From Agrobacterium vitis (lineage in GTDB: Bacteria; Pseudomonadota; Alphaproteobacteria; Rhizobiales; Rhizobiaceae), in assembly GCF_037039395.1 (NCBI RefSeq), contig NZ_CP146241.1:310001-374000 (forward strand): a stretch of 64,000 bases of DNA, written 5' to 3'. The notes below the pieces were generated by a model. It worked only from the letters and a program-made list of their open reading frames with translations, searched no databases and had not been told where the DNA came from. Positions 9,307-61,969 of this stretch are shown here, in pieces. The position numbers were made by a program, and so were the translations under genes. Positions within the stretch are counted from its first letter, which is position 1. Every line of letters begins with the position of its first letter.

Positions 9307-9471
9307 CAATATAAACAGCAGTTCAACGCCTTCATAATCGAAATTCACAATCCAATCTGAGGTTGTAATGACTTTCAAAATAGCCTCCGGCAAAGGCATC
9401 TCCAAGACGGCCGTTTCCACCCTTCAGCTGCGCGCGCACGACGCCCGGTGCGCTCTGGCGGAGGCATGGCA

Positions 9472-41915: not shown

Positions 41916-42617
41916 TTAACCGTCTTCCATCTCGCCGTCTTCCCCATGCGCTCCATCCATCATCTGAAGCTCGCCCTTTCGGCTGAGCAGTCCAGCATCT
42001 TCAAGCGCTTCGATGTCTGGCAGGTCACGCAGCGTCTCCATATCGAAAGCGGACAGGAAGTGTTTGGTGGTTACATAGGTATAGGGCGCACCAGGGGTCG
42101 GACTGCGAGGCCCTGAGGCTATGAAACCGGCACCCCGGAGCGCTGCAATGGTATCGCGGCTGACCTCCTTGCCGAAGATCTTGCTCAGCTCTGCCCGGGT
42201 AACTGGCTGGAAATATCCCACCGCCATCAACACCATCGCCTCAAACTCCGACAACGTCGCTGTTGCGCCGCGCGTCGGAGCGGTTGAGGTGCGTATTGTC
42301 TCTGCGAACCGCGCCCGAGTTCGGTGTTGCCAGCCGCCGGCCACCCATACCAGTTCGTAGGGGCGAGGCCGAAGCTCCTCGATGAGATCGTCGATCAGCA
42401 GATCGATGCTGCACTCTTTTCCCACCACGCGCGCCAGCGTCTCGCGGCTGACCGGATCAGCCGAGGCAAAGATCACCGCCTCTACGCGCAGCATCCATTC
42501 GCGCCAGCGCAGTTCCGGCGGCAAATCCTCCAGTTCACGATCAAACAGCCGTTCGGCTGCGGCACTCGCCCTTTCCTTGCGGGATTGTTTGGCGGTAGGG
42601 GATCTGGCCATCGTCAC
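41916..42617 (-). CDS. ScpB-like segregation/condensation protein, copy 1
   Basis: This 233-residue protein resembles ScpB, the winged-helix partner of SMC-ScpA condensin: EWMLRVEAVIFASADPVSRETLARVVG, a WQHRTRARFAETIR strand and SEFEAMVLMAVGYFQPVTRAELSKIFGKEVSRDTIAALRGAGFI. It starts GTGACGATGG, with the GTG overlapping the stop of the DUF1403 gene, so the pair is translationally coupled. Copy 2 (61280-61969) is very similar by eye over the central 200 residues. No ScpA or SMC gene is in the window. The C-terminal tail (acidic, GEDGEMEDG) differs from copy 2. The role is presumably in segregation or topology of this replicon, but that is unproven. Confidence 0.85.
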   Translation of the reverse strand: MTMARSPTAKQSRKERASAAAERLFDRELEDLPPELRWREWMLRVEAVIFASADPVSRETLARVVGKECSIDLLIDDLIEELRPRPYELVWVAGGWQHRTRARFAETIRTSTAPTRGATATLSEFEAMVLMAVGYFQPVTRAELSKIFGKEVSRDTIAALRGAGFIASGPRSPTPGAPYTYVTTKHFLSAFDMETLRDLPDIEALEDAGLLSRKGELQMMDGAHGEDGEMEDG

Positions 42618-43567
42618 AGTCCAAACACCCGGAAAGAGCTGCGACCGGAGAGTTCGCGCACCGCTTCAAAGCTTTCCAGCCGTTCGAACAGCCGGTTGGC
42701 CGCCCAGCGGGAGAGGCCACTGCCAGGCGCCGAGGCCAGCACGGCATCTTCGTTCAGCAATCTGCGGATCACTGGCTCGGCGCCTTTGGTGCGAACCTTC
42801 GGCGTGACAGCCAGCAGCCGCGCCGCACGTCGATCGATGTCGACGGCGCAACGGAGTGCTGCGTCAACCCCATCGACCAGTGCCAGGCAGATCGCCTTTG
42901 GATAAGCCAGCTCGCCCGGACGAACGCGCCCCCGCCCACCGATCGTCCGGAAGGACGGACCAAAACGCTCGGGCAGCAGCATCGGCACGGGTTTCGGCCA
43001 CTTCAGCTTTTGAGCTATCACAACATCGGCCAGTCCCAGAGCCAGTACCTCTGCGTCCGGACGGATTGCGCAAATCTCTGCTATCAGGTCCACCGCCACG
43101 AAGGGTGCCGCTCGACCTGATTGGATCGCAGAATCCACCAGGTCTGGAATGGAGGCTAGCCCGTTATCCCAGCGAAGGTCCAACAGCGCGGCAAGCTCCT
43201 GTATAAATGGCGTGGTGATTGTCCCGGCCCGAGGCGACAGCATTCGTGTGGCCAAAAACAATTTGCCGGCTGGCCCCGGATCGTCACCATGTGCCGTCAG
43301 CAAAAGCGCGTCACGCAACGCGTGTTCGTCCTCGCCGCGGCCACCGATTCTGGCAGCGACGGCAGCCGATTTCAGGGCGAGGCGATCACGCCAGCAGCCA
43401 AGCCAGGGCGGATCGGCCCGCACCAGATCGTCGAGCGATTTCAGAGCGATACCGGCAGAAAACGCCGCGTCGGCTTCAAGAATGTCGCGACCGCGCAAGG
43501 AAGCCCAGCCTGGCAGACGGGACGACCAGCTCGAGGATGGCTCTGTGGTGGGCGTGCGCGAATCCAT
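42614..43567 (-). CDS. DUF1403 family protein, copy 1
   Basis: This roughly 317-residue protein is of the uncharacterised DUF1403 family: DAAFSAGIALKSLDDLVRADPPWLGCWRDRLALKSAAVAARIGGR, GDDPGPAGKLFLATRML, DVVIAQKLKWPKPVPMLLPERFG, and a C-terminal helix-rich end GLSRWAANRLFERLESFEAVREL with a winged-helix look. ATG 43567 is chosen to match the start of copy 2 (both begin Met-Asp-Ser); ATG 43579 is possible. It precedes and overlaps the ScpB-like gene just as scpA precedes scpB in condensin operons, so a kleisin-like role is conceivable, though I see no clear ScpA motif. Function is unknown. Confidence 0.82.
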   Translation of the reverse strand: MDSRTPTTEPSSSWSSRLPGWASLRGRDILEADAAFSAGIALKSLDDLVRADPPWLGCWRDRLALKSAAVAARIGGRGEDEHALRDALLLTAHGDDPGPAGKLFLATRMLSPRAGTITTPFIQELAALLDLRWDNGLASIPDLVDSAIQSGRAAPFVAVDLIAEICAIRPDAEVLALGLADVVIAQKLKWPKPVPMLLPERFGPSFRTIGGRGRVRPGELAYPKAICLALVDGVDAALRCAVDIDRRAARLLAVTPKVRTKGAEPVIRRLLNEDAVLASAPGSGLSRWAANRLFERLESFEAVRELSGRSSFRVFGL

Positions 43568-43763
43568 GCGAAACAGCATAAATCAGGGGCGCAGTTTAAT
43601 CCAGCTGGATCGCCATAACCGCACATTCTGTCATGCTGGCTCCAACTCGAACTTCAACACTGGGAACTTCTTGCCTTGTTAGCGGGTTGTGGTGACGTAA
43701 CAATCCTCACCTCAATCTGCAGAACGTCCAGGTAATGGAGTTCCCTGTCTGAAAGACACGATT

Positions 43764-47652: not shown

Positions 47653-48723
47653 CTAGCCCTTGGATAGTGTTTGTGTCTTCAGCCATTTTAGCACCTGGAT
47701 CTCGTCTTCATCCATCCATTGAAGAAGGCGTTCACTCGTGGTTTGCAACTTAAGGACATCACGAAGCGTACCAGCTTGGAAGCCTTCGAACACGGCGGGA
47801 TGGATGTAGGAAGACCGACAGACAGACCGGGTATTGACCAGCTTCGCGGCGACTGCGTCGATCGCATCATTGAGTTGACGGGCCAGTTCGCGCTTCGTCG
47901 TGGCGGGCTCGACAGATGCAAGTGCATCCACCGCCATGCACGTTGCGCCCCACGTTCTGAACTGGCGTGAACTGAAATCATCACCTGTCATCTCTCGGAT
48001 ATAGGCATTCACATCATGCGACGAGATGGGTCTGCACCCGCCTTGATCGCAAACGTATTGAAAGAGATGTTGTCCTGGAAGTTCCTGTAGTTTTCGCACG
48101 ACATTGGCGATCCGGCGGTCGCTATGGGCAAGGTTCCATTCCTTGCCGGATTTACCTTTGAACCGAAACTTGACGCTGCCGCCTTCGACCCTCACGTGAC
48201 GACTGCGCAACGTCGTGAGGCCAAACGACTTGTTCGCCTCTGCATAGGCGGCGTTTCCTATCCTGATATAGAGGTTATCGAGCATCCATACGACAGTTGC
48301 CAGCGCCTTGTCGATGTTGAGGCCGCGCGAGCGAAGGTCGATGTCGACCCGCTCACGTAGGTCAGGAAGTCGGGACGCGAAATCGGCCAGCCGTTCGAAC
48401 TTGGCCTTGCCTCGCTCGGCGTGCCAATCTCTATGATAGCGGTATTGCCGACGACCCTTGGCATCCGTGCCGATTGCCTGCAGGTGTGAGAACGGATTTG
48501 TCGAGATGACGACGTCTGTATAGGCCGGCGGTATTGCCAGAGAGTTCAGGCGAGCGATCTCATCAGCCTGGGTAATCCGCCGCCCGTCTGGGCGGTAATA
48601 GAGGAAGCCCCTGGCACCCATTTTCCGAGTGATCCCGGTTTCCAAACCAGGACCATAGACCAGCCCGGACGTGATTTTGGCCTCGGTAGCGTTTCTATCG
48701 ATTTCGGTGACGATCTGGTTCAT
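47653..48723 (-). CDS. DNA topoisomerase IB (poxvirus-like bacterial type)
   Basis: This 356-residue protein shows the bacterial topo IB layout: an N-terminal DNA-binding part (GFLYYRPDGRRI, DEIARLNSLAIPPAYTDVVI), a catalytic domain with the Arg/Lys residues in YIRIGNAAYAEANKSFGLTTLRSRHV and FRFKGKSGKEWN, RQFRTWGATCMAV, and the nucleophile Tyr in CRSSYIHPAVF. It relaxes supercoils through a 3'-phosphotyrosyl intermediate. Such genes are often on large rhizobial replicons. It is divergent from the rep region with a 740-base gap. Confidence 0.92.
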   Translation of the reverse strand: MNQIVTEIDRNATEAKITSGLVYGPGLETGITRKMGARGFLYYRPDGRRITQADEIARLNSLAIPPAYTDVVISTNPFSHLQAIGTDAKGRRQYRYHRDWHAERGKAKFERLADFASRLPDLRERVDIDLRSRGLNIDKALATVVWMLDNLYIRIGNAAYAEANKSFGLTTLRSRHVRVEGGSVKFRFKGKSGKEWNLAHSDRRIANVVRKLQELPGQHLFQYVCDQGGCRPISSHDVNAYIREMTGDDFSSRQFRTWGATCMAVDALASVEPATTKRELARQLNDAIDAVAAKLVNTRSVCRSSYIHPAVFEGFQAGTLRDVLKLQTTSERLLQWMDEDEIQVLKWLKTQTLSKG

Positions 48724-49462: not shown

Positions 49463-50688
49463 ATGGGTTTTGAAATGGCGAAGACCGCCCCGAAAACTGA
49501 GGCCGTGATTGAGGGGTTGACTGCCTTGATGGAGCGTCACGCCGACGCGCTTTCCAGCCAACTGCAAGCACATCATTTGAAAGTTTTCCCCCGACCTCCG
49601 AAAAGGGGATTCGGACCTTCGGGCCGTCTGAAGCGTCTAAGTTGCTTGGCGTTGGGGAGTCTTATCTAAGGCAGATTGCTTCAGAAATGCCAGAGTTGAA
49701 TGTCAGCATGAGCCCTGGGGGCCGGCGCATTTTCTCGATTGAAGATATCCACGTGATCCGCAAGCACATGGACCAGATCGGTCGCGGAAACCGTCGCTAC
49801 CTTCCGCATCGTCGAGACGGCGAGCAGCTTCAAGTCATTTCTGTCATGAATTTCAAGGGTGGCTCGGGCAAAACGACCACCGCCGCGCATTTGGCTCAAT
49901 ATCTCGCAATGCGTGGTTACCGGGTCCTTGCTATCGATCTTGATCCTCAGGCAAGCCTGTCTGCGCTCTTTGGCAGCCAACCGGAGACGGACGTCGGTCC
50001 AAACGAGACCCTCTATGGCGCCATCAGATATGATGATGAGCAAGTGCCGATCGAACAGGTCGTTCGAGGAACGTATATTCCTGACCTTCATCTCATTCCC
50101 GGCAATCTCGAACTTATGGAATTTGAGCATGACACCCCCCGCGCCTTGATGAAGCGCAAGGAAGGTGACACGCTCTTCTATGGTCGCATCAGTCAAGCGA
50201 TTGAAGACATTGCTGATAATTATGATGTCGTCGTCATCGATTGCCCTCCGCAACTCGGTTACCTCACGCTGTCAGCGTTGACGGCTGCAACATCCATCCT
50301 TGTTACGGTTCACCCCCAGATGCTCGATGTGATGTCAATGAACCAGTTTCTGGCAATGACGTCGAATTTGCTGAGAGAAATTGAGAGCGCTGGTGCGGAG
50401 TTCAAGTTCAATTGGATGCGCTACCTTATCACCCGTTTCGAACCGAGTGATGGGCCGCAAAACCAGATGGTTGGCTATCTCAGGTCTATTTTCGGGGAAA
50501 ACGTCCTTAATTTTCCAATGCTCAAAACGACGGCTGTCTCAGACGCGGGCCTTACAAACCAGACCCTTTTTGAAGTGGAACGCGGTCAGTTCACGCGATC
50601 AACCTATGACCGTGCCTTGGAGGCTATGAACGCTGTCAACGATGAGATTGAATCTCTGATCAAAAAAGCATGGGGTAGAACCACATGA
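49463..50688 (+). pseudogene. repA: repA, ParA-type partition ATPase, interrupted by a one-base frameshift
   Basis: The N-terminal part (ALMERHADALSSQLQAHHLKVF) reads in frame 2 from ATG 49463. The rest (PPTSEKGIRTFGPSEASKLLGVGESYLRQ ...) reads in frame 1 to 50688. The switch falls in TTTTCCCCC at 49584-49591, and one extra C would restore the canonical KVFPPTSEKGIR. Downstream are the Walker-type motif MNFKGGSGKTTTAAHLAQYL, IDLDPQASLSAL and VVIDCPPQLGY of RepA. The full protein would be about 408 residues and works with RepB and parS to segregate the replicon and repress the operon. Because the homopolymer run is the usual site of sequencing error and partition is normally required, a working gene is quite possible. 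TTG 49642 would give a protein lacking the N-terminal helix-turn-helix. The stop overlaps repB (ATGA). Confidence 0.85.
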
Positions 50689-51707
50689 GCCGGAAGCATA
50701 TCCTTGGCGTCTCGACGGACGCCCAAGACGTTAAGCCGTCTGACAATCGGGCAGGGAAAACGCGGTCAATGCCGCTTCTCGGAGTCACCAGAAAAGAACG
50801 CGACCCGGCAACAAAGCTGACTGCGAATATTGGAAACGCACTGCGTGAGCAGAATGATCGCTTAAGCCGCGCCGAAGAGATAGAGCGGCGTCTTGCTGAA
50901 GGCCAAGCTGTTGTCGAATTGGATGTCTCGACCGTAGAGCCATCCTTCGTGCAGGACCGTATGCCCGGTGACATTGACGGACTTCTCGAATCGATTCGCG
51001 ACCAGGGCCAGCAGGTCCCGATCCTCGTACGCCCTCACCCGGATATGCCGGGGAGATATCAGGTTGGCTTCGGACATCGCCGGCTCCAGGCCGTTTCAGA
51101 ATTAGGTCTTCCGGTCAAAGCGGTTGTTCGCGAGTTGACGGACGAACAATTGGTCATTGCACAGGGCCAGGAGAATAACGAGCGCCAGGACCTCACCTTT
51201 ATCGAGAAAGCGCGTTTTGCACATCGCTTGAATAAGCAATTTTCACGCGAGATCGTTATTGCCGCAATGTCGATCGACAAGAGTAACCTGTCGAAGATGC
51301 TTCTGCTGGTCGACACCCTCCCCCCGGAGTTGATCGATGCAATCGGCCCCGCGCCGGGGGTCGGCCGACCGAGCTGGCAGCAACTCACGGAGTTTATCGA
51401 AAAGGCCCCCTCGCCTTCTGACGTCTCAAAATACGCGCTATCGAACGAGGTGCAAGCGCTGCCATCTGCGGAGCGGTTCAAGGCGGTGTTGGCCAGCCTT
51501 AAGCCTCGACGGGTCTCTCGAGGGCTTCCGGAAATTATGTCGACCCCTGATGGGGATAGATTGGCTCAGGTTTCGCAAAGCAAATCCAAATTGGAAATCA
51601 CGATAGACAGGAAGGCGACGCCGGATTTCGCAGCCTTCGTAATGGATCACTTGCCTGCGCTTTATCAGGCGCACCGAGCACAGACCCAGAAGAAACAAGG
51701 AGAGTAG
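50685..51707 (+). CDS. repB: RepB, ParB-type centromere-binding partition protein
   Basis: This 340-residue protein begins with a short RepB-typical N-terminus (MSRKHILGVSTDAQD). The ParB/Srx domain has LLESIRDQGQQVPILVRPHPDMPGRYQVGFGHRRLQA and a helix-turn-helix (FSREIVIAAMSIDKSNLSKMLLLVDTLP), followed by a C-terminal dimerisation region. It should bind parS and stimulate the RepA ATPase. It overlaps repA by four bases and is separated from repC by the usual intergenic stretch that encodes a counter-transcribed RNA. Confidence 0.95.
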   Translation: MSRKHILGVSTDAQDVKPSDNRAGKTRSMPLLGVTRKERDPATKLTANIGNALREQNDRLSRAEEIERRLAEGQAVVELDVSTVEPSFVQDRMPGDIDGLLESIRDQGQQVPILVRPHPDMPGRYQVGFGHRRLQAVSELGLPVKAVVRELTDEQLVIAQGQENNERQDLTFIEKARFAHRLNKQFSREIVIAAMSIDKSNLSKMLLLVDTLPPELIDAIGPAPGVGRPSWQQLTEFIEKAPSPSDVSKYALSNEVQALPSAERFKAVLASLKPRRVSRGLPEIMSTPDGDRLAQVSQSKSKLEITIDRKATPDFAAFVMDHLPALYQAHRAQTQKKQGE

Positions 51708-51710
51708 TCC

Positions 51711-51768
51711 GCAAAAGAAAAGAGCTCCCCCAACGTCGCCGTCGTGGAAGCCCTTCTGTCTCTCTAGC
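51711..51768 (-). ncRNA. Counter-transcribed RNA of the repB-repC gap (incompatibility RNA)
   Basis: On the minus strand TTGACG (complement of 51798-51803) and GATTCT (complement of 51775-51780) are 17 bases apart, a good promoter. Transcription from about 51768 would end at a hairpin formed by GGGCTTCC and GGGGGAGCTC with TTTTCTTTT after it (down to about 51711). Size (about 57 nt), place and strand match the antisense RNA that limits repC expression in repABC plasmids. Confidence 0.75.
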
Positions 51769-51858
51769 AAGAACAGAATCGCATTTCCTCGAATCCTCGT
51801 CAAGAGTTTTTGCGCCATTTTGGTGAGTGATTTTCTTTTGCCTGCTGAAAGGTGAAAG

Positions 51859-53076
51859 ATGATGGAGACTGGAAATGTAACGACGCCCTTTGGGCGGCGG
51901 GGTATGACGCTTGCGCTGGTCCGTCGGCAAGTCGCCACAAGCGACATTAAGCCGGGCAAACATGCGGATAAGTGGAAAATATTCAGGGATACCTCAGCGG
52001 CAATGGAAATGCTTGGGATACAATCCAACAGCCTTGCGGTTCTCGATGCCTTATTGAGCTTTTATCCGGAGAATGAACTGCGGCAGGATTCGCAGCTCGT
52101 TGTTTTCCCCTCGAATGCTCAACTTGCTCTTCGGGCGCACGGGCTGGCTGGGGCGACTTTACGCCGGCATATCGCTGTGCTTGTAGATGCAGGCCTGATC
52201 GTTCGCAAAGATAGCGCCAATGGAAAACGCTACGCGCGCAAGGATAACGCCGGTCAGATCGAGCAGGCATTTGGCTTCGATTTGTCACCGCTTCTCGCAC
52301 GCTCAGAAGAGCTTGCGATGATGGCGCAACAAGTGATGGCTGATCGCGCTGCATTTAGGAAAGCCAAGGAAAGCCTGACCATTTGCCGTCGAGACGTTCG
52401 CAAGCTGATCACGGCGGCGATCGAGGAGGGCGCGCAAGGCGACTGGCATGAGATCGAATGCACCTATGTATCGCTCGTGGGCAAAATATCCAGGACCCCA
52501 TCCCTGTCAGAGGTTACTGCGATTTTGGATGAGATGAACAACCTGAAGAGCGATATTATTAAAAGATTGGAAAATCAGCTAAATTCAGAAAAAAATAGCG
52601 GCAATGCTGCTCAATTTGAGCAGCACATACAGAATTCAAATACCAAACACATTAATGAACTTGAACCTCGCTCTGAAAAAGAGCAAGAGGCGACCAGGGA
52701 GCAAAACAGCTCGCCTCAAAGTGTGCCGATAAAGTCGTTTCCGCTTGGAATGATTTTGAAGGCCTGCCCTGCGGTTAGCGATTACGGTCCGGGTGGGAAA
52801 ATAGAAAGTTGGCGTGACTTAATGACGGCCGCAGTGGTGGTTCGATCTATGTTGGGAGTAAGTCCGGACGCCTATCAGGAAGCCTGCGAAATTATGGGTC
52901 AAGAGAATGCAGCTACCGCTGTTGCATGTATTTTAGAGCGTGCAAATTTTATCAACTCAGCTGGGGGATATTTGCGTGATCTAACCCGTCGATCAAAACA
53001 GGGAGAGTTCTCCCTCGGGCCTATGATGATGGCTTTGTTGAGGTCCAACGGACAAGTAGGTATGAAGGCGGGGTAA
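51859..53076 (+). CDS. repC: RepC, replication initiator
   Basis: This 405-residue initiator is of the repABC family: TTPFGRRGMTLALVRRQ, GKHADKWKIFRDTSAAMEMLGIQSNSLAVLDALLSFYPE, FPSNAQLALRAHGLAGATLRRHIAVLVDAGLIVRKDS (winged helix), and the C-terminal ACPAVSDYGPGGKIESWRDLMTAAVVVRSMLGVSPDAYQEA. It initiates replication at an origin inside its own coding sequence. AAGGTG precedes ATG 51859 by a few bases. The counter-transcribed RNA of the preceding gap should control its translation or transcription. Confidence 0.95.
   Translation: MMETGNVTTPFGRRGMTLALVRRQVATSDIKPGKHADKWKIFRDTSAAMEMLGIQSNSLAVLDALLSFYPENELRQDSQLVVFPSNAQLALRAHGLAGATLRRHIAVLVDAGLIVRKDSANGKRYARKDNAGQIEQAFGFDLSPLLARSEELAMMAQQVMADRAAFRKAKESLTICRRDVRKLITAAIEEGAQGDWHEIECTYVSLVGKISRTPSLSEVTAILDEMNNLKSDIIKRLENQLNSEKNSGNAAQFEQHIQNSNTKHINELEPRSEKEQEATREQNSSPQSVPIKSFPLGMILKACPAVSDYGPGGKIESWRDLMTAAVVVRSMLGVSPDAYQEACEIMGQENAATAVACILERANFINSAGGYLRDLTRRSKQGEFSLGPMMMALLRSNGQVGMKAG
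52545..52675. other. AT-rich stretch inside repC, candidate oriV
   Basis: Bases from about 52545 to 52675 are clearly richer in A and T than the rest of repC (for instance GATATTATTAAAAGATTGG and TCAGAAAAAAATAGC) and encode the variable linker between the two RepC domains. In studied repABC plasmids the replication origin lies in such a stretch within repC. No iterons are visible. Confidence 0.5.
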
Positions 53077-58748: not shown

Positions 58749-58847
58749 AATCTGCTGCATACTTCCTTAAAACAGAATCGATTTAGGGAAGTATGCAGCA
58801 GATTAAAATGGTACAGCGCCATGCGTTTTATAAAACGCACTGCGCTG
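58749..58847. repeat. Two-hairpin intergenic mosaic repeat
   Basis: AATCTGCTGCATACTTCC (58749-58766) and its exact complement (58787-58804) form an 18-bp stem around a loop containing GAATCGATTTA. A second hairpin has CAGCGC/GCGCTG arms (58814-58819, 58842-58847) around the perfect palindrome TGCGTTTTATAAAACGCA (58822-58839). It shares order and core words with the element in the fecR leader (40602-40693). It looks like a dispersed non-coding repeat. Confidence 0.7.
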
Positions 58848-59017: not shown

Positions 59018-60205
59018 CTACAGCCCCGCCGCTTTTGTCAAATTGACCCTGAAGCGATCCCGTCGGCGCTGGTACCTGCGGGTCATCTCGGCTGAGGCAT
59101 GACCGAGTTGCTTCTGCACATAGCGTTCATCGACTTCCGCGGAGGAGGCGAGACCGGCGCGAAGCGAATGGCCGGAGAATTTGAAGGCGCGCTCGATCTC
59201 GCTGAGATCGCCGCGAACCCCGGCAGCCATGGCAGTCCGCTTCACCAGCCTTGCCACTTCCTTATCGTTCAAGCGTTCCGGGCCAACGGACTTGCCTTGT
59301 CCGGTGACGCGGCGGAACAGGGGGCCATGGGCAAGTCTGGCAAAGGTGATCCAGGTTTCGACCGGAACCACCGGGCAGGTGGTGTCGGAGGAGCCACGGC
59401 CGATCTCGACCTCGCGCCAGCCGGTCTTGCCGCGCAGGGTGACGAGCATGCCCTTGTCGAATATTTCGATCCAGCCGCGCCCGTCTTCGGTTTGGTCAGC
59501 CTTGATGTCGAGACCAACAATCTCGGACCGCCGCAGGCCACCGGCATAGCCGATCAGCAGCATGGCCCGATCGCGCAGGCCGCGCAATGTTCCTCGATCG
59601 AGTGTCTCGATCATGGCGATAATATCCTCGGCCAGCACCGCTTCCTTCTGCACGGGTGGGCGTGCGTGGCTGTTGCGAATGCCGGCCATGACGGTGGCGA
59701 TATGCCGATCCTTGCGATCGAGCATCAGCCCGCGTTGCGCGTAGTTCCAAGACAATGAGGAGAGGCGACGCTCAACGGTCGAGACAGCATTTGCCTTGGC
59801 GCCAGGTTTCGATGTGCCAAGTGCCGGTGTGCCAAGTGTCGGCGTGCCAACGGTCTCGCCTGAGGCACAGGCGGTGATATAGAGGCCAACGGTCTGTGGG
59901 TCCGGGGGGAGGGGGGCCAAATTCAAACGCCGGCACCAGGCGCTAAAATGTTTCCAATCGGAGGCATAGGCTTTTCGGGTATTGGCAGAACTTGCCGCCG
60001 CCACATAGTCGCGGGCGCGGTCCGCCAGGCTGGCGAGATGCGTTGGCATCTGCTCGTCGGTGGAGGAGAGGGGAGGGGCTTGCATCGAGGTGCCAGCGGC
60101 CAACACCTGCGGCGCGCAAACATCACCCTCAGCCGCCGTGCTGAGCGACGGCGCGCCGCTCTCCTGGCGGGGAATATCGGTGTTTTGCGCGATGATTTGG
60201 GCCAT
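59018..60205 (-). CDS. Tyrosine recombinase (phage-integrase family)
   Basis: This 395-residue recombinase has a long low-complexity N-terminus (about 1-60), a SAM-like core-binding domain (SLADRARDYVAAASSANTRKAYASDWKHFSAWC) and a catalytic domain with Arg in YAGGLRRSEIVGL, the beta-hairpin GMLVTLRGKTG, HSLRAGLASSAEVD, QLGHAS and the nucleophile Tyr in MTRRYQRRR. A linker repeat (GTPTLGTPALGTSKPG) separates the two domains. It is divergent from the DUF1403/ScpB-like pair with 124 bases between, holding a perfect 11-bp inverted repeat. Likely roles are multimer resolution or rearrangement of this replicon. AGAGAA precedes the ATG at 60205. Confidence 0.92.
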   Translation of the reverse strand: MAQIIAQNTDIPRQESGAPSLSTAAEGDVCAPQVLAAGTSMQAPPLSSTDEQMPTHLASLADRARDYVAAASSANTRKAYASDWKHFSAWCRRLNLAPLPPDPQTVGLYITACASGETVGTPTLGTPALGTSKPGAKANAVSTVERRLSSLSWNYAQRGLMLDRKDRHIATVMAGIRNSHARPPVQKEAVLAEDIIAMIETLDRGTLRGLRDRAMLLIGYAGGLRRSEIVGLDIKADQTEDGRGWIEIFDKGMLVTLRGKTGWREVEIGRGSSDTTCPVVPVETWITFARLAHGPLFRRVTGQGKSVGPERLNDKEVARLVKRTAMAAGVRGDLSEIERAFKFSGHSLRAGLASSAEVDERYVQKQLGHASAEMTRRYQRRRDRFRVNLTKAAGL

Positions 60206-60224
60206 TTCTCTATAATGTACAACA

Positions 60225-60251
60225 TGTCCGATAATGCAAGATTATCGGACA
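60225..60251. promoter_or_regulatory. Perfect 11-bp inverted repeat between recombinase and DUF1403 genes
   Basis: TGTCCGATAAT (60225-60235) and ATTATCGGACA (60241-60251) are exact complements around GCAAG. The 11-bp arms around a short centre resemble a tyrosine-recombinase core site, although five bases is shorter than the usual 6-8. It begins 20 bases upstream of the recombinase start, so it could equally be an operator for the divergent promoters. TTTTTATTT follows. Confidence 0.5.
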
Positions 60252-60329
60252 TTTTTATTTAACGACAGACTGTGCGCTTTCTGTCGAAATATCTGGCATA
60301 AACTGCGCATCCAATGTATCTTCATCCGT

Positions 60330-61283
60330 ATGGATTCACTTGCGCCAACTCCACCTCCTGTCTCGACGTGGTCGCCCCACCTGCCAACCTGGACCTTGTC
60401 GCGCACACACGACATCACCGAATCCGACGCCGCGTTTGCTGCCGGTATCGCTCTGAAATCGCTTGATGATCTGCTCCGCACCAACCCGCCATGGCTCGGC
60501 TGCTGGCGTGATCGCCTTGCCCTCAAATCGGCCGCCGTCGCTGCCAAAATGGTAGGCCGTACTGAAGAGGAAAACGCTCTCCGCGACGCGGTCTTGCTAA
60601 CCGTCGCCGGCGACGATCCCGGCCCGTCCGGAAAGCTGTTTCTGGCCACACGAATGATGGCACGCCAATCCGGGACAATTGCTACCTCATTCGTCAGAGA
60701 GATCGCCGATCATTTTGGCCTTCGGTGGGACGATGGTCTTGCCTCGATCCCGGATCTGGTCGATTCTGCCATCCAGTCCGGGCGAGCAGCACCCTTCGCG
60801 GTGGCGGACGTTATTACGGCGATCTCCGCCGTTCGCCCGGATGCCGAGGTGCTGGCGCTTGGGCTGGCCGAGGCCGTTCTGGCGCATAAGCTGAGCTGGC
60901 CGAAATCCGTGCCGCTGCTGTTGCCCGAAAGGTTTGGCCCCTCGTTCCGTACCATCGGCGGACGCGGCCGGGTTCGCCCGGGCGAGCCGGCCTATCCGAA
61001 AGCAATCTGTATGGCGCTGTTCGACGGCGTCGACGCCGCGTTGCGCTCCGCCGTCGAAATCGATCGTCGTGCGGCGCGATTGCTAGTCGTGGCACCAAAA
61101 CTGCGCACCAAGGGCGCCGAGCCTGTCATCCGTAGATTGCTGAACGAAGACGGCGTGCCGGCCTCAGTGCCCGGCAGCAGTCTGTCGCGCTGGGCGGCTA
61201 AACGGCTGTTCGAGCGTCTCGAAAGTTTCGAGGCGGTGCGGGAGCTGTCCGGCCGGTCATTCTTCCGGATCTTTGGGTTGTGA
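60330..61283 (+). CDS. DUF1403 family protein, copy 2
   Basis: This 317-residue protein is a close paralogue of copy 1 (42614-43567): DAAFAAGIALKSLDDLLRTNPPWLGCWRDRLALKSAAVAAKM, GDDPGPSGKLFLATRMM, FGPSFRTIGGRGRVRPGEPAYPKAIC and the C-terminal SLSRWAAKRLFERLESFEAVRELSGR. ATG 60330 aligns with copy 1; upstream in-frame starts lie in or near the inverted repeat. The stop overlaps the start of the ScpB-like gene (GTGA). The C-terminal segment looks like a winged helix, so DNA or protein binding is plausible. Function is unknown. Confidence 0.83.
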   Translation: MDSLAPTPPPVSTWSPHLPTWTLSRTHDITESDAAFAAGIALKSLDDLLRTNPPWLGCWRDRLALKSAAVAAKMVGRTEEENALRDAVLLTVAGDDPGPSGKLFLATRMMARQSGTIATSFVREIADHFGLRWDDGLASIPDLVDSAIQSGRAAPFAVADVITAISAVRPDAEVLALGLAEAVLAHKLSWPKSVPLLLPERFGPSFRTIGGRGRVRPGEPAYPKAICMALFDGVDAALRSAVEIDRRAARLLVVAPKLRTKGAEPVIRRLLNEDGVPASVPGSSLSRWAAKRLFERLESFEAVRELSGRSFFRIFGL

Positions 61284-61969
61284 CGATGGCCGAGTCTCCT
61301 GCAGCCAAACCAAACCGGCGGAAGGCGAACGCCGCAGACGAACGTCTGTTTGATCGCGAGCTCGAAGAGCTGCCATCAGATCTACGCTGGCGCGAATGGA
61401 TGCTGCGTGTGGAGGCGGTGATCTTTGCTTCTGCCGAACCTGTTAGCCGCGAGACGCTGGCGCGGGTGGTAGGAAAGGACTGCAGCATCGATCTGCTCGT
61501 TGATGATCTGCGCGAGGAACTCAGTTCCCGGCCCTATGAGCTGGTGTCGGTCGCCGGTGGTTGGCAGCATCGAACCCGTCCGCGGTTCGCCGAGACGATC
61601 CGGGCTTCTTCGGCGCCGACGCGGGGAGGGGCGGCGGCGCTGTCGGAGTTCGAGGCGCTGGTGCTGATGGCGGTGGGATATTTCCAACCGGTGACCCGTG
61701 GTGAACTGTCCAAGATCTTCGGCAAGGAAGTCAGCCGCGATGTGATCGCGGCGCTACGCGGCGGCGGCTTCATTGCATCCGGGCCGCGCAGCCCAACACC
61801 GGGCGCGCCCTATACCTATGTGACAACGCCACACTTTCTCTCGTCATTCGGCATGGAGACGCTGCGCGACCTGCCAAACATCGAAGCGCTTGAAGATGCG
61901 GGTCTGCTCAGCCGTAAGAGCATCCAAGTGGTAGACCTGGCTTCGACAGGCGACGACGAGGATGAGTGA
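61280..61969 (+). CDS. ScpB-like segregation/condensation protein, copy 2
   Basis: This 229-residue protein is nearly the same as copy 1 over its core (EWMLRVEAVIFASAEPVSRETLARVVGK, WQHRTRPRFAETIR, SEFEALVLMAVGYFQPVTRGELSKIFGKEVSRD). The start region GTGACGATGGCC is conserved between both copies, including overlap with the DUF1403 stop, so coupling is preserved. ScpB normally forms dimers that bridge ScpA and SMC. Here the only partner encoded nearby is DUF1403. The final 20 residues differ from copy 1. Confidence 0.86.
   Translation: MTMAESPAAKPNRRKANAADERLFDRELEELPSDLRWREWMLRVEAVIFASAEPVSRETLARVVGKDCSIDLLVDDLREELSSRPYELVSVAGGWQHRTRPRFAETIRASSAPTRGGAAALSEFEALVLMAVGYFQPVTRGELSKIFGKEVSRDVIAALRGGGFIASGPRSPTPGAPYTYVTTPHFLSSFGMETLRDLPNIEALEDAGLLSRKSIQVVDLASTGDDEDE

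Follow-up and report, generated by a model that had tools for sequence, protein, structure and literature searches.

Several described systems come close to the locus analysed here. Cre/loxP of the plasmid-prophage P1 employs a single tyrosine recombinase and a site with palindromic arms and an asymmetric spacer, which is 8 bp long in loxP, and Cre is not known to need accessory proteins. The TnpS/TnpT/rst system of Tn4651-type cointegrate resolution is comprised of a tyrosine recombinase and a helper encoded by divergent genes, and the site between them contains a core inverted repeat and a second repeat pair (PMC7157771). At rst, TnpS reportedly acts with the aid of TnpT. Plasmids of bacteria that interact with plants are the source of the recombinase family Famint18 (Van Houdt et al., 2012; PMC3414803). 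A role in plasmid resolution has been considered for such plasmid recombinase families (Famint11/Famint18) and no further support for it was found; the part of that article that covers them reports no site (PMC3414803).

Here, a locus on a 536 kb replicon of Agrobacterium vitis (genome of ~6 Mb) is compared with these systems. The window, which is the whole stretch of 64,000 nucleotides that was analysed, carries a tyrosine recombinase gene and, divergent from it, genes for a DUF1403 protein and a ScpB-like protein. TnpS/TnpT/rst is the nearest described layout. Both have divergent genes with a palindromic core between them, and a second inverted-repeat pair beside the core is also found in relatives of the window module, while in the window it is imperfect. 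The helpers differ. TnpT is a KfrA_N protein without similarity to DUF1403, whereas the window module has two partners, the Fic-like DUF1403 protein and ScpB, and resides on plasmid backbones. Profile searches and direct comparison found no TnpT-type (KfrA_N) helper in the module, and DUF1403 as a TnpT relative was rejected for want of similarity. With Cre/loxP the module shares the single tyrosine recombinase, the palindromic arms and the asymmetric spacer, but its spacer is 7 bp long. It has a defined core, in contrast to Famint11/Famint18 as covered in that article, and our guess is that the window recombinase belongs to Famint18. With a probability of roughly 0.6, we read the locus as a plasmid-borne, lox-like site-specific recombination module with DUF1403-ScpB accessory proteins.

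Organization of the Locus

The recombinase gene (59018–60205, minus strand) encodes 395 amino acids and matches PF00589 (E 3.3e-15). The catalytic R, K, H-x-x-R, H/W and Y are present; R and HxxR were placed by PF00589 and a Cre alignment, and the rest by eye. All 16 PDB sequences that match the protein are Cre (best E 6.7e-6), which makes Cre its sole PDB relative by sequence. The recombinase is 25% identical to the integrase of pWW0. The annotation of these two pWW0 genes goes no further than integrase and DNA-binding protein, and we take them to be TnpS and TnpT of Tn4651. The DUF1403 gene (60330–61283, plus strand; PF07183) encodes 317 amino acids, and the ScpB-like gene (61280–61969, plus strand; SMC_ScpB, PF04079, E 1.8e-31 in the profile search) encodes 229. 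The two overlap by 4 bases. A longer DUF1403 frame, 60234–61283 on the plus strand, gave a DUF1403 match with E 6e-138 in the profile search. The ATG at 60330 is the more likely start, because 60234 lies inside the palindrome and most close relatives match the 317-residue form end to end. The original prediction named these three genes with their divergent recombinase, the coupling of ScpB to DUF1403 and the absence of ScpA or SMC nearby, and all of this was borne out. ScpA is matched just once in the genome, on the chromosome (C2) next to the ScpB gene there, and the one SMC-sized match (a 1161-residue frame) is also on C2.

The repA-repB-repC genes (49642–53076, plus strand; profile matches) lie 6 kb from the recombinase gene, and a type IB topoisomerase gene (47653–48723) is near them. 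At 9448–35786, large NRPS/PKS genes and, after them, a gene for a TonB-dependent receptor probably form a siderophore-type cluster. Two strong inverted repeats, 58749–58804 (23-nt arms) and 58814–58847 (17-nt arms), are downstream of the recombinase gene and are not kept in the copies on replicons C3 and C5.

The pair was said to occur twice on this replicon, and a homology search recovered the second pair (C1b), whose DUF1403 gene (42614–43579) and ScpB-like gene (41916–42617) are both on the minus strand, have no adjoining recombinase and are 74 and 81% identical to the first. Upstream of this solo DUF1403 gene the second inverted repeat is present (43589–43625, minus strand) and the core site is absent. 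Two more copies are on other replicons of the genome: C5 has the recombinase, and C3 has the recombinase with DUF1403 and ScpB in pieces. The recombinase is 99% identical across C1, C3 and C5, and DUF1403 and ScpB are 65–83% identical there. In the C3 copy (L017, G000:C3, 8560–9720) a stretch of roughly 0.8 kb interrupts DUF1403, and the ScpB frame is broken. An isolated fragment elsewhere on C3 (L018, G000:C3:98965–99195) corresponds to residues 1–77 of the longer frame of DUF1403.

The Probable Core Site and the Second Repeat

The intergenic region between the recombinase and DUF1403 genes is 124 bp long and contains two repeats. The first is the probable recombinase core site (60226–60250, plus strand), to which a repeat search, a site survey and breaks in sequence identity point. 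Its left arm (60226–60234) and right arm (60242–60250) enclose the asymmetric 7-bp spacer TGCAAGA (60235–60241). The repeat reaches 60221–60255, with arms of 9–14 bp, and the core usually lies 103–104 bp before the DUF1403 start. A scan of the 6-Mb genome that allowed up to 3 mismatches found the core three times, on three replicons and each time beside a copy of the recombinase; a reversed-pattern control gave none. DNA inversion by the recombinase, another of the predicted roles, is unsupported because each of the three recombinase-carrying replicons has only one site.

The association was surveyed in 47 full-length DUF1403 loci, namely 31 genome contigs and 16 plasmid loci picked along the identity ranking (L048–L050 are near copies of one another); 7 of 54 loci had a partial DUF1403 and were excluded, and 2 of the 47 were untestable for the recombinase. 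ScpB follows DUF1403 in 46 of the 47, and a divergent recombinase is kept in 37 of the 45 testable loci, with DUF1403 identities down to 29%. This co-occurrence is non-random, as the original prediction expected. The core is present in 36 of the 37 loci with the divergent recombinase vs 2 of the 8 without it (Fisher p 2.3e-5), in both untestable loci, and in none of 45 downstream control stretches. A first impression that all recombinase-less loci lack the core was corrected by those two. The lone core-less locus among the 37 (L044) has a longer spacer. The outer arm bases covary (GTCC/GGAC, GAAC/GTTC, GACC/GGTC), and GATAA and TTATC are nearly invariant.

The exact core pattern has 29 sites in the 297 family genomes, spread over 25 of them, against none for the reversed pattern. 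At 19 of the sites, a DUF1403 match is no more than about 175 bp away. Among the remaining 10, four (L166, L167, L168, L170) have a recombinase within 2 kb, three of these with repABC in the stretch; one (L171) adjoins repABC and has no recombinase match in the stretch; and five have neither recombinase nor repABC in the stretch examined, which was only 3 kb for L081, L082 and L089. Four of the six sites without a recombinase in the stretch have spacers unlike TGCAA. Recombinase and core stand beside repABC without DUF1403 in three stretches of this survey. Because core sites beside the recombinase exist without DUF1403, the core, judged by these sequence surveys, goes with the recombinase and not with DUF1403; some sites stay unexplained. 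The same spacer is often common to replicons of one genome (G229 C10/C11, G161 C6/C9, G000 C3/C5; GTCAACG, TGCAAAA, TGCAATC), as expected if replicons recombine with each other, and genome G153 is a counter-example.

The second inverted repeat (60271–60309, plus strand), TGTGCGCTTT ... AAACTGCGCA, is imperfect in the window. Seven of its 10 positions pair, and it is not the best-scoring repeat of its stretch; its position is kept in relatives. Across 81 loci (duplicates and off-module sites removed), the best repeat starts 18–23 bases right of the core in 70, and a score of at least 8 was reached in 22 vs 1 of 81 shuffled. The repeat is kept in two loci where DUF1403 is gone (L094, L096).

DUF1403 was matched on 691 of 72,556 plasmid records and in 109 of the 297 family genomes, and the module is carried by large plasmids of soil and plant-associated bacteria. 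Genes of the Tn402/Tn5053 kind (tniQ, tniB, transposase) are beside scpB, downstream of it, in 3 of the 16 annotated plasmid loci (L065, L071, L072). Transposons of this kind target resolution sites. Toxin-antitoxin or similar pairs lie between DUF1403 and the recombinase in 6 of the 16 (L061, L068, L069, L070, L073, L075), and such pairs have been reported next to Tn3-family resolvases (PMC7157771). Searches of the open-access literature returned no paper on DUF1403, on ScpB with repABC plasmids, on ScpB with an Agrobacterium plasmid recombinase, or on a Fic domain with a winged helix in site-specific plasmid recombination, which is weak evidence of novelty. The module is ordinary in abundance and, within these searches, undescribed.

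Probable Sequence Exchange at the Core

The C3 and C5 copies have 8 kb in common on the recombinase side at 99%; they are identical up to the core, and identity then falls to 0.66. The flanks of 84 of 103 candidate sites were compared (19 duplicates or off-module sites removed), which gave 3240 pairs in which each flank was long enough. The left-right flank correlation of -0.05 is not counted as evidence, because unalignable flanks were scored 0. Over about 1.2 kb, the change-point fell between -16 and +30 of the first base of the core in 11 of 14 pairs, which had been selected for one near-identical flank, are not independent of each other and were aligned with the core as anchor. It fell elsewhere in three (L023/L053, L079/L093, L033/L034), two of which have small likelihood gains. 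The sharpest change-points are at 18–20 (C5/C3), 11–18 (best 16; L100/L115) and 0–1 (best 0; L093/L100).

Protein distances were compared over loci kept by coverage (41 of 58, then 32). In the 32 loci, pairwise distances correlate at 0.75 within the recombinase, 0.79 within DUF1403 and 0.63 between DUF1403 and ScpB, vs 0.11–0.22 across the core (recombinase with DUF1403, r 0.21, Mantel p 0.025; recombinase with ScpB, r 0.11, p 0.19). In the wider 41, the cross-core values are 0.54–0.70 (0.54–0.65 for recombinase with DUF1403) vs 0.84–0.95 within genes and 0.87–0.90 for DUF1403 with ScpB.

A natural joint was found in contig C15 of genome G113 (L163). Starting at the core, 4158 bp are 99.9% identical to contig C14 of genome G009, a DUF1403 plasmid, and on the other side 4.1 kb match plasmid pRheCIAT894c at 91% identity. 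The gene interrupted by the joint in G113 is complete in that plasmid, with a frame of 276 residues. On the left of the core, 62 of the 71 adjacent bases of the joint agree with the insert-free plasmid and 15 with the donor; on the right, 14 of 65 agree with the plasmid and 64 with the donor. The joint has the same spacer as a further site of that genome (G113 C32). No near relative of the recipient gene was found in the 297 genomes (4 matches, one of them the joint itself and the best other 33%), and one was found among plasmids. In pRheCIAT894c, this gene (L163 4279–4854 / L177 3743–4573) has a gene for an ATP-binding protein as its neighbour, and it may be part of a defence-like pair. The simplest account of the joint would be a site-specific event at a secondary site, which is favoured because the parents share almost no homology there (a few bases). 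From these comparisons, site-specific exchange very probably occurs at the core.

The DUF1403 and ScpB-Like Proteins

DUF1403 is predicted to have a Fic-like fold with a winged-helix tail. Both structure models, made of DUF1403 alone, match Fic proteins over 273–281 residues, and Fic proteins top both lists of the fold comparison. The models show a helical part and a C-terminal winged helix. Fic proteins with a C-terminal winged helix (SO_4266, 3eqx; 7cb8) are about 10% identical to DUF1403, and the Fic motif HxFx(D/E)GNGR, which was found in none of 66 DUF1403 members, is missing. A profile comparison of these 66 returned no Fic family, and hhalign of DUF1403 against one single Fic protein gave no match. 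A search of PDB sequences found nothing even at E 10, and the viral structure library gave no match with E at or below 0.001.

The ScpB-like protein has its domain in common with ScpB of SMC-ScpA-ScpB and scores below the TIGR00281 cut-off (68.6 of 89.2 bits). In a tree with 33 of 34 plasmid rows (length filter), plasmid ScpB forms a lineage separate from chromosomal ScpB. ScpA is beside ScpB in 0 of 34 plasmid loci vs 30 of 30 chromosomal loci; in the window, DUF1403 takes that place.

Proposed Mechanism and Alternatives

The tyrosine recombinase would bind the two 9–14 bp arms at 60226–60250 and exchange strands within the asymmetric 7-bp spacer. Where a plasmid dimer or fused cointegrate carries two directly repeated cores, recombination would resolve it into monomers; where the cores are on separate plasmids of one cell, this reaction could swap or fuse DNA. 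DUF1403, with its predicted Fic-like fold and winged helix and without the Fic motif, and the translationally coupled plasmid-lineage ScpB would be accessory and regulatory proteins. One or both may bind to the second inverted repeat, which lies 20 bp away from the core, regulate the divergent promoters and steer recombination toward resolution, like TnpT with TnpS at rst. The core site, its link to the recombinase and exchange at the core are supported by the sequence comparisons, and we infer the strand-exchange chemistry and the DUF1403-ScpB binding site. Resolution is probably the main (selected) role of the module. We hold the accessory role of DUF1403-ScpB tentatively, at slightly less than even odds. 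It is a long shot that a DNA-binding protein with a degenerate Fic fold and a ScpB captured by plasmids tie recombination to the host SMC complex, with crossover confined to sister plasmids while these are condensed and separated.

DUF1403-ScpB may instead be a separate plasmid maintenance or regulatory pair, such as a repressor or a host-SMC loader, that merely shares the intergenic region. This is possible, though we lean against it: pairs without recombinase and core keep the second repeat (C1b, L036, L040, L042, L121) and the sequence history of the pair is weakly tied to that of the recombinase, but the divergent recombinase persists in most testable loci even where DUF1403 identity is low. 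The replicon-specific maintenance module that had been proposed stands in part, as the gene set is conserved and the recombinase appears to act on plasmids, judging by the core, the identity breaks and the joint; its two halves are separable. The same proposal let DUF1403 stand in for ScpA, as a kleisin for host SMC with the ScpB-like protein. The order DUF1403-scpB mirrors scpA-scpB, and a kleisin also has a helical part and a C-terminal winged helix. Against this stand the extended Fic matches of both models, with no kleisin among the matches listed for either, and the lack of any sequence match to a solved structure, and we consider it very unlikely.

The recombinase could also be the integrase of a mobile element, with the core as its attachment site and DUF1403-ScpB as passenger or neighbour. 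The G113 joint does resemble an insertion or fusion at a secondary site, and near-identical recombinase flanks are found on several replicons (C3 and C5 among them). However, the single site per replicon of this genome leaves no second att copy that bounds an element, no element of constant length was seen, and even in plasmids that have diverged strongly the block stays at one position ahead of DUF1403, which makes an integrase unlikely. Similarly, the palindromes could be operators of the divergent promoters, and the identity breaks the product of homologous recombination around a conserved module. Both repeats are intergenic and may overlap promoters, and resolution sites are known to serve as operators as well (PMC7157771). 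This explanation is quite improbable, given that identity breaks inside the 25-bp core where the flanks on one side are unrelated (L093/L100 and L100/L115), that the parents of the natural joint have no more than a few bases of homology in common there, and that the repeat accompanies the recombinase even without DUF1403. The lox-like recombination module remains our preferred reading.

Implications for Large Plasmids

Large plasmids of the repABC type and their relatives, among them symbiosis and Ti plasmids, persist as single-copy replicons, and a cell holds several. To our knowledge, the resolution of their dimers and fusions has been little studied. A defined core site makes plasmid resolution directly testable, and the core gives a mechanism for exchange and fusion of these large plasmids. 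DUF1403 gains a first setting and a predicted fold, and a ScpB lineage is shown to live on plasmids, apart from ScpA. Our analysis suggests that the module is a hitherto overlooked machine that keeps plasmids apart.
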